Below are positions 7,235 to 40,163 of a DNA stretch of 64,000 nt, piece after piece (within the stretch, counting starts at the first letter, position 1; each line of letters begins with the position of its first letter). Made by a program: the position numbers and the translations under genes. The DNA is taken from contig NZ_CP087715.1 of NCBI RefSeq assembly GCF_020991125.1, positions 3,945,501 through 4,009,500 on the forward strand, written 5' to 3'. Origin of the DNA: Microbulbifer celer (lineage in GTDB: Bacteria > Pseudomonadota > Gammaproteobacteria > Pseudomonadales > Cellvibrionaceae). The notes below the pieces were generated by a model. The model was not told where the DNA came from. It was given only the letters and a program-made list of their open reading frames with translations, and searched no databases.

Positions 7235-7357
7235 TGGCGGCACTGCTACCGGGTACCGCTTTCTGAGACACGCCGTGAACCCATCCCTGGGGGCTCTTCT
7301 AAAACATCCCTGTTTTAGAAGGTCTCAGAAAGCGGTACCCGGTATCAGTACCTTCGC
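7235..7357 (+). repeat. Structured intergenic element, copy E1
   Basis: Outer arms 7247-7269 and 7322-7344 are perfect 23-base complements, and weaker pairing extends outward toward the border motifs TGGCGG (5') and CCTTCGC (3'). Inside lies GTGAACCCATCCCTGGG, which can form CCCA/TGGG with a TCCC loop, then a second hairpin 7296-7305 / 7312-7321 (CTTCTAAAAC with its complement, loop ATCCCT). It lies between ftsY and ftsE. Confidence 0.9.
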
Positions 7358-9188: not shown

Positions 9189-9310
9189 TGGCGGGGCCGC
9201 GGTCGGGTACAGCTTTTCAGGACCGCTGTGAATACATCCATGTAAGCTGCGGCGCAAACATCCTGTTTGCGACGCTCCTGAAAAGCTGTACCCGACCGCG
9301 CCCCCTTCGC
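9189..9310 (+). repeat. Structured intergenic element, copy E2
   Basis: Outer arms 9198-9222 and 9276-9300 are perfect 25-base complements. The interior reads GTGAATACATCCATGTA (TACA/TGTA stem with a TCCA loop), then a hairpin CGCAAAC / GTTTGCG around ATCCT at 9253-9271. The TACA/TGTA stem replaces the CCCA/TGGG of most other copies, so pairing is kept with different bases. It lies between ftsX and rpoH. Confidence 0.9.
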
Positions 9311-10647: not shown

Positions 10648-10767
10648 TGGCGGGAAGGCACCGGGTATGGGTTTTCGGAACCGCGGTGAACCCATCCCTG
10701 GGCGCTGCGGCGCAAACATCCTGTTTGCGACGCTTCCGAAAACCCATCCCCGGCACCTCCCCTTCGC
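10648..10767 (+). repeat. Structured intergenic element, copy E3
   Basis: Outer arms about 10658-10680 and 10734-10756 pair with one internal mismatch and a looser outer end. The interior has GTGAACCCATCCCTGGG and the hairpin CGCAAAC / GTTTGCG with loop ATCCT. Its core is nearly identical to inverted copy E4 downstream of DUF423. The stem base pair 10677:10737 is G:C here and A:T in E4. Confidence 0.9.
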
Positions 10768-10812
10768 ATTGAACTGTTTTACTTCGTAAGCCGATTGGTA
10801 AGGAAATAGCTG

Positions 10813-11190
10813 ATGGCTAAATTGTATTTATTACTCGCCGCATTTTTCGGTGGCACCGGTGTCGTTCTCGGTGCCTTTGGCGCCCACGGCCTGCGTAACA
10901 AAGTCGCGGAAAACCTGCTGGAAGCCTATAAAACCGGTGTGCATTACCAGATGATCCACGCGCTGGCGCTTATCGCCGTTGCAATGTTGATCCATCAGCT
11001 TGGCGCAAAAACTTCCCTGATTGTCAGTGGTGCGCTGTTTGCGGTCGGTATCCTGTTTTTTTCCGGCAGCCTCTACGGTCTGACATTCGGCGGCCCGAGA
11101 ATCCTGGGGCCGATCACGCCCCTGGGCGGCACCCTGATGATCGGCGGCTGGATAGCGTTATTTATCGCCGCCCTCAGTTACACCAAATAA
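10813..11190 (+). CDS. DUF423 family inner-membrane protein (YgdD-like)
   Basis: A 125-residue protein with four hydrophobic segments. Family motifs are GVVLGAFGAHGLRNKV near residues 17-32, AYKTGVHYQMIHALAL near 41-56 and FGGPRILGPITPLGGTLMIGGW near the end. The biochemical role of the family is not known. The gene is alone between inverted repeat copies E3 and E4, each within about 50 bases of the coding region, which is unusual and may mean the segment has moved as a unit. Confidence 0.92.
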   Translation: MAKLYLLLAAFFGGTGVVLGAFGAHGLRNKVAENLLEAYKTGVHYQMIHALALIAVAMLIHQLGAKTSLIVSGALFAVGILFFSGSLYGLTFGGPRILGPITPLGGTLMIGGWIALFIAALSYTK

Positions 11191-11226
11191 GCACACGGCG
11201 GTAATAAAATACGCCGAACCCAGAAT

Positions 11227-11347
11227 CGAAGGTCGAGTGCCGGGGATGGGTTTTCAGAAGCGTCGCAAACAGGATGTTTGCGCCGCAGCGCCCAGGGATG
11301 GGTTCACCGCGGTTCTGAAAACCCATACCCGGTGCTCGGCCGCCCCA
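11227..11347 (-). repeat. Structured intergenic element, copy E4 (inverted)
   Basis: Outer arms 11239-11259 and 11313-11333 pair, extending to about 11235 and 11337 with G-T type mismatches. Read on the minus strand its central ~100 bases match E3 except for two positions that are partners in the stem. Borders are CGAAGG at the left and CCGCCCC at the right, the complements of the family borders. Confidence 0.9.
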
Positions 11348-20996: not shown

Positions 20997-21119
20997 TGGC
21001 AGTGCTGCTACCGGGTAGGCGCTTGCAAGACACGCCGTGAACCCATCCATGGGGCTCGGCTGCGGCCGTCCTGGCCGCAGACGGTCTTGCAAGCGCCTAC
21101 CCGGTATCAGCACCTTCGC
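20997..21119 (+). repeat. Structured intergenic element, copy E5
   Basis: Outer arms 21009-21031 and 21084-21106 are perfect 23-base complements and extend outward with few mismatches (AGTGCTGCTACC against GGTATCAGCACC). Inside are GTGAACCCATCCATGGGG and the hairpin CTGCGGCC / GGCCGCAG with loop GTCCT (21060-21080). It lies between acpH and gshA and shares its interior, but not its arms, with inverted copy E6. Confidence 0.9.
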
Positions 21120-23399: not shown

Positions 23400-23506
23400 C
23401 TTTGCTCGGACATGGGGGCAGTTTAGCGAGGGCTTGAGGGTGGCTCAAGGATGGTATGAAAGTCTGCGGTGAAGCGCGAGGGTGTTCAGTTAATTGAAGT
23501 TGCTGT

Positions 23507-23628
23507 GAAGGTGCCGATGCCGGGTATGGCTTTGTGAGACCGTCTGCGGCCAGGACGGCCGCAGCCGAGCCCCCATGGATGGGTTTACGGCGTGTCTCAC
23601 AAAGCCATACCCGGTAGCGGCACCGCCC
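23507..23628 (-). repeat. Structured intergenic element, copy E6 (inverted)
   Basis: Outer arms 23510-23540 and 23594-23624 are 31 bases long and pair with two mismatches. On the minus strand the interior has GTAAACCCATCCATGGGGG and the CTGCGGCC / GGCCGCAG hairpin, almost the same as E5, while the arms are different from E5 throughout their middle. Confidence 0.9.
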
Positions 23629-31543: not shown

Positions 31544-31579
31544 TAGTCAGCTCCGTAACGAAGTAAAGAAGCCCGAATT

Positions 31580-31698
31580 GAAGGCCGGGTGCCGGGTAAT
31601 AGTTTTTGAAAGCGTCGGCGACAGGGACGTCGCCGCCGCAGCGTACAGGGATGTATACACAGCGGTTTCAAAAACTATTACCCGGTGCCCGGCCGCCA
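31580..31698 (-). repeat. Structured intergenic element, copy E7 (inverted)
   Basis: Outer arms 31583-31611 and 31666-31694 are 29 bases long and pair with two mismatches. The interior, on the minus strand, has GTGTATACATCCCTGTA (TACA/TGTA stem with TCCC loop), and the second hairpin is GGCGAC / GTCGCC around AGGGAC (31617-31634). It lies between hslV and hslU. Confidence 0.9.
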
Positions 31699-40027: not shown

Positions 40028-40163
40028 TGGCGGCGCCGCTACCGGGGTCTGTTTGCGGGACACGGACTAGGCGCCCCCCCGTGAACCCATCCATGGGGGC
40101 TCGGCTGCGGCCATCCAGGCCGCAGACGGTCCCGCAAACAGACCCCGGTATCGACGCCTTCGC
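40028..40163 (+). repeat. Structured intergenic element, copy E8
   Basis: Outer arms 40032-40061 and 40129-40158 are 30 bases long and pair with two mismatches. The interior has GTGAACCCATCCATGGG and hairpin CTGCGGCC / GGCCGCAG around ATCCA. Compared with E5, an extra stretch of about 16 bases (GGACTAGGCGCCCCCC, near 40065-40080) lies between the left arm and the core. It lies between ubiE and ubiJ. Confidence 0.88.

Follow-up and report, generated by a model that had tools for sequence, protein, structure and literature searches.

The region analyzed here is a window of 64,000 nucleotides, corresponding to positions 3945501-4009500 of the 4.35-Mb single-contig genome of Microbulbifer celer, and all coordinates below are those of the window unless stated otherwise. 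A DUF423 gene (10813-11190, + strand; PF04241, E = 1.2e-27) lies between rpoH and trmB and is the sole gene between two hairpin elements, E3 (10648-10766, + strand, with the TCC strand on +) and E4 (11227-11345, - strand). The bracketing of a lone DUF423 gene by an inverted pair, as reported in the preliminary description, agrees with these coordinates and orientations. E3 and E4 are A-type copies of a three-way hairpin and were matched by our covariance model (CM R1, built from 44 copies) with 133 and 131.6 bits, respectively. The RNA fold of E3 had z-scores of -7.1 on the + strand and -7.5 on the - strand. On the + strand of E3, the outer stem (stem positions 4-13) is formed by 10652-10661 and 10753-10762; it is site-specific, and G.U pairs on the reverse strand are tolerated. 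The inner stem (positions 19-32), formed by 10667-10680 and 10734-10747, is the zone in which joint pair changes occur. It is followed inwards by the hairpins P2 (10691-10702; CCCA-TCCC-TGGG) and P3 (10707-10733; TCC loop), both of which present GGA on the reverse strand. By symmetry with E3, P2 and P3 of E4 were placed at 11291-11302 and 11260-11286 on the - strand.

E3 could be aligned with the reverse complement of E4 over 118 nt without a gap, with 98% identity over 99 nt. Within these central 99 bases (10658-10756) only two positions differ, and they face each other in the stem. Pair 29 (10677:10737) is G:C in E3, with G in the left arm and C in the right arm, and A:T in E4, where the counterpart of 10677 is 11316 (A on the element strand, T on +) and that of 10737 is 11256 (T on the element strand, A on +). 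The near-identity of the cores and the two partner differences had been described exactly. The same list of differences overlooked the four-base blocks just outside the core (10654-10657 and 10757-10760), which differ as well; three pairs in these blocks are still matched (AGG/CCT in E3, GAG/CTC in E4). By our own estimate, two random differences would fall on complementary partners ~0.2% of the time, and the paired difference is therefore not due to chance. The strain is represented by one genome assembly, which would leave room for an assembly artefact, but the pair toggles between G:C and A:T over 13 assemblies and is always paired at the E4 site (G:C in six species, A:T in seven, no intermediates). 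Chance or artefact thus appears exceedingly improbable as the source of the two differences.

E3 and E4 belong to a large family. The covariance model search identified at least 147 full copies of ~120 nt in the genome among the matches listed, divided into subtypes A (84 copies) and B (63 copies). Each copy combines the long outer stem P1 with two hairpins, the short P2 and P3, and the outer ends read GTGGCGG ... CCTTCG. No replication-strand bias was observed among the copies (74:73). Further copies in the window are of B type at 7235-7356 (+, upstream of an ftsE-like ABC ATPase gene; the orthologous site S7235 of the rate test below), 20998-21117 (+), 23506-23628 (-) and 40028-40162 (+, with a ~14-nt insert of the GGACTAGGCGCCCCCC form), and of A type at 9189-9308 (+, between an ftsX-like gene and rpoH) and 31579-31698 (-). 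The copy at 9189-9308 had no counterpart in the corresponding regions of 12 relatives. The ~14-nt insert (AGCTAGGCGCCCCCC) lies at the three-way junction and was also found in L027, L033, L034, L038, L040 and L044; several copies with this insert have mismatched arms. Six pairs of copies in the genome have no more than two core differences, E3/E4 among them; the members of the other five are unlinked and far apart. All 16 copy pairs less than 200 nt apart are inverted (12 +-, 4 -+), and at 200-1000 nt, the range of E3/E4, orientation looks random. The inverted bracketing by E3 and E4 is therefore not unusual. Rfam matches to miRNA families (mir-629, mir-3199 and others) were rejected as palindrome artefacts, as they fell under the curated score, some of them on both strands.

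The preliminary description had also raised the possibility of a composite-like unit, in which the whole segment could move or invert. The inverted bracketing is in keeping with such a unit, and inverted repeats of ~100 bp could recombine. In addition, plasmid pDCA carries an ISAs1-family transposase gene with such a copy on either side, again in + / - order. However, the order and direction of rpoH, DUF423 and trmB were constant in all 30 genus loci read, whether or not elements were present, and inversion or absence of the 10648-11347 segment, for which a check among relatives had been proposed, was found in none of them. In the 13 carriers (own genome included), the E3 and E4 sites were both filled and always in unchanged orientation, and the remaining 17 loci kept the gene order with no element present. 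Since DUF423 occupies the same place in loci without elements, it is a resident gene and not cargo. As an account of the fixed differences, a composite or invertible unit is refuted by the 30 genus loci, and we regard it as highly improbable. It had been stated that this idea would fail if all relatives kept the gene order without any elements and no inversion was seen; the constant order and the lack of inversion hold in 30 of 30 loci, whereas elements do occur, in the 13 carriers.

Occupancy and orientation were also compared across the relatives' regions, with 1622 occupied and 44 empty cases among orthologous site pairs, counted over overlapping comparisons. At sites 7235 and 23506, orientation differs between species, together with different P3 types (L081, L082, L084, L088, L089, L091); therefore, replacement or re-insertion happens at sites other than E3/E4. 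The empty-site comparison in Microbulbifer yielded no clean empty site with a target duplication; conservation of the flanks stops ~22-26 nt outside the element, and several of the 'empty' sites are hairpin deletion remnants. In apparent remnants of this kind (L109, L091, L082/L087), the hairpin interior is gone and the outer arm ends are joined.

Analysis of the loops and mismatches gave a strand to the fold. Nearly all of 143 copies have TCC, that is GGA on the reverse strand, in each of their two loops. Outer-stem mismatches read on the + strand comprise 75 A-C and 9 G-T, which corresponds to G.U on the reverse strand (p = 4e-14), and at positions 11-12 of subtype A the ratio is 102:0 in the same direction. 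On the basis of this bias, the reverse-strand fold is probably under selection in its outer part. CsrA/RsmA bind ANGGAN hairpin loops, with the consensus RUACARGGAUGU (PMC7652899). The reverse-strand loops AUGGAU, AGGGAU and AGGGAC have the ANGGAN form, with A-GGA-U shorter by one base, and are candidate CsrA/RsmA sites by their loop form. The genome contains one csrA gene. The GGA strand showed no sense preference relative to genes (34 sense, 30 antisense, by rough gene calls from a caller that misjudged DUF423), and a cis role in mRNA is therefore not supported. Divergent-gene gaps were rare (6 of 98).

The architecture resembles TwoAYGGAY RNA (Rfam RF01731; Weinberg et al., 2010, PMC2864571), in which a long outer stem likewise leads to a pair of hairpins whose terminal loops bear GGA on the same strand; the likeness of that motif to CsrA sites has already been proposed (PMC4333381). 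On the GGA strand, relatives of the element family in other genera of the order exceeded the RF01731 cut-off of 43 (45.6 and 47.6 bits), and matches of CM R1 and RF01731 lay on opposite strands, as expected. E3 and E4 themselves gave no match to RF01731, and the search of their own genome returned two weak matches, the best of 39.0 bits, below the gathering score of 43. Unlike TwoAYGGAY RNA, the Microbulbifer family is a dispersed repeat of at least 147 copies, in which the long perfect stems are free in sequence and turn over in pairs; these features were not found in the parts of the open TwoAYGGAY literature available to us. A literature search with strings of the element core returned nothing relevant among open papers. 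An orphan Rfam motif is thereby connected with dispersed hairpins that form large families in many Gammaproteobacteria, in some cases within mobile elements.

It is an open question in RNA evolution how stem pairs change without passing through a broken state, and the present family provides hundreds of copies per clade, conserved sites and matched neutral flanks. One-step (template-switch) and two-step (selection) models are therefore separable by counting. Across paralogs, the inner pairs include all four Watson-Crick types with few mismatches. In the inner stems of the 44 aligned copies, changes on both sides were observed in 29 of 43 pairs, one-side changes were almost nil in the variable columns, and 314 cells were doubly changed, compared with 95 in shuffles and 35-63 when partners were slid. 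Between little-diverged orthologous copies, 181 paired and 7 single differences were counted in the inner stem (position 18 excluded), as against 26 paired and 118 single differences in the outer arms; some of these comparisons reuse identical sequences. Neither the outer arms (positions 4-13) nor position 18 are held matched, unlike the inner stem: at position 18, T and C are mismatched (G.A on the reverse strand) in 23 of the 84 A-type copies, within a stem that is otherwise well paired.

Rates were measured at three sites, against a rough neutral yardstick in which flank divergence is partly coding. At the E4 site in relatives, flank divergence was 0.171, and inner pairs had changed on both sides at 0.188 and on one side at 0.003. 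The corresponding values were 0.167, 0.204 and 0.000 at S7235, and 0.185, 0.216 and 0.107 at the E3 site, where the one-side figure is mainly due to two chimeric copies. On a species tree built from five flanking genes, we counted 17 pair-state changes at E4, 18 at S7235 and 36 at E3; by comparison, third codon positions had 1.8 changes each and coding sites 0.9. Non-Watson-Crick cells amounted to 1 of 182 at E4 and 0 of 144 at S7235. Given that pairs at E4 and S7235 change at a near-neutral rate and that only 0-0.3% of them are half-changed, pairs change jointly. The joint change by hairpin-templated repair or conversion that had been put forward for E3/E4 is thus supported, and the compensatory difference between the two is a rule of the element family, not special to this pair.

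Independent mutations under purifying selection for a structured RNA or a single-stranded DNA hairpin, with intermediates purged, might produce the same end states. The invariant or nearly invariant GGA loops of both hairpins, the skew of outer-stem mismatches towards G.U on the reverse strand and the constancy of the P2/P3 cores in some comparisons despite flank divergence all agree with such selection. In contrast, inner-stem mismatches are symmetric (24 A-C, 19 G-T) and offer no G.U route, and under a stepwise-fixation model a mismatch fraction held at 0.003 predicts a pair-change rate of ~0.7% of neutral, whereas the observed rate is about neutral; mutation plus selection would be ~100 times too slow. 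Thus, selection probably shapes the loops and the outer stem without explaining the turnover of inner-stem pairs, for which we consider it an improbable cause.

Comparison of arms and cores with those of relatives pointed to exchange between the two copies. The outer arms of our E3 resemble those of E3 orthologs (0.80) more than those of E4 orthologs (0.60), and the outer arms of our E4 those of E4 orthologs (0.79) more than those of E3 orthologs (0.57), whereas the inner arms of our own E3 and E4 agree at 0.95. E3/E4 core likeness was 0.83 within and 0.78 between genomes (permutation p = 0.0017). The common core beside site-specific outer arms indicates that the core was converted between the copies, which also lends support to the conversion alternative raised before. 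E4 was probably the donor and E3 the recipient, since the core of our E3 is 99% identical to the E4 of a near relative (G001). It should be noted that conversion by proximity was rejected as a general rule, as close copy pairs are no more alike than distant ones (p = 0.80).

Conversion from a donor might even suffice by itself, if whole interiors were replaced from other genome or population copies whose arms arrive already matched. The core common to E3 and E4 and the varying orientation at sites 7235 and 23506 fit this idea; moreover, orthologous sites often differ by whole modules such as P3, and element identity is ~86% regardless of flank identity. Among E3 orthologs, the 36 pair changes exceed the expectation for single-site drift and two copies are chimeric (L083, L090), and therefore donor conversion acts as well. 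However, isolated changes of a single pair in an otherwise unchanged interior, such as pair 29 of E3/E4, argue against it as the only process. At S7235, L090 and L091 differ by A:T to T:A in an inner hairpin that is otherwise identical save for a loop insert, and L086 and L087 differ at pairs 23 and 7 only. The varied stem sequences in the donor pool would still need a matched-pair origin. We therefore consider donor conversion alone rather unlikely.

The reading that we favor, with somewhat more confidence than doubt, is that conversion between the inverted copies followed by concerted copying within a hairpin would explain E3/E4. E3 and E4 would both be resident members of a dispersed family of TwoAYGGAY-like three-way hairpins. 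Gene conversion between the two inverted elements would have overwritten the core of one with that of the other, probably E3 with E4, and left the site-specific outer arms of each in place. Later, a mutation in one arm would have been copied onto the facing arm by template switching in replication (quasipalindrome correction), changing G:C to A:T, or the reverse, in one step within a single hairpin. The polarity is ambiguous, as both states of pair 29 occur among near relatives. Template switching is known to make one-step compensatory changes (PMC8794818) and may be the copying mechanism here. As donor conversion would need two separate single-base tracts, one per arm, copying within the hairpin is the simpler reading. 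Against it, the copying would need to be restricted to the inner stem, as the outer arms and position 18 are unmatched, and single unpaired mutations are present in young copies from another genus (G400). A more far-reaching proposal, that the hairpin is renewed as a unit by a dedicated or replication-linked process which resynthesizes an inner-stem arm from its partner, appears unlikely to us; if true, it would be part of how TwoAYGGAY-like elements persist or spread, and would make compensatory change run at a neutral rate, with no intermediates, at hundreds of loci.

Several known systems share part of these features. In quasipalindrome correction or template-switch mutation, one palindrome arm is copied onto the other, which gives one-step compensatory changes (PMC8794818, PMC7202029); the likeness lies in the joint changes, but that is a mechanism and not a family, and here it is suggested by comparative data only. 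REPINs and REP elements with RAYT transposases are dispersed intergenic hairpins with inverted doublets and compensatory stem changes (PMC3116915). The present family likewise consists of dispersed intergenic hairpins with compensatory stem changes, and its 16 close copy pairs are all inverted; its units, however, are 120-nt three-way hairpins, with no conserved tetranucleotide at the stem foot. Mobilization by a RAYT was rejected because no intact RAYT was found: the histidine motif of the genome's only Y1_Tnp gene (L048, genome positions 3529739-3530065) is degenerate (NMVQII), and no element copy lies within the 4 kb of this gene. Integron attC sites, with RYYYAAC / GTTRRRY core sites in an integrase-linked array, were considered on structural grounds; the present copies are dispersed, and their ends read GTGGCGG ... 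CCTTCG.

With regard to distribution, all records of the genome collection that matched the element-core pattern were from Microbulbifer, and the covariance model found matches in 30 of 40 genomes at the level of the genus, 38 of 116 at that of the order and 39 of 274 at that of the class, with thresholds set per search. Viral contigs had no match to the core pattern. A distant-mode search of plasmid and phage sets with E3 gave no matches, and a B-type query matched two plasmids. On pDCA (NZ_KU922118.1; L242, 2487-3975), the two inverted related hairpins that flank the transposase gene lie within apparent terminal repeats (CAGGGCAATCGCACTA). A MITE in G400 has the same three-way core in its middle, matched by the same model. 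This MITE has terminal repeats (GTAACTATTCAGC), target duplications of 8 bp and copies that are nearly identical, whereas no terminal repeats of this type were found for the Microbulbifer copies. The G400 copies (L246-L255) show the duplications gatggaac, tataaatt and aattttta and a TwoAYGGAY-like hairpin, and differ from one another mostly by single, unpaired changes. Finally, a GC-rich mini-element of ~35 nt (GGCCCGGCCGCTCCAGGTATTCACGGCGCCTTCGGCC and variants) was observed within the P3 loop of L016, L021, L176 and L090, and a stretch resembling it lies downstream of DUF423 in L069.
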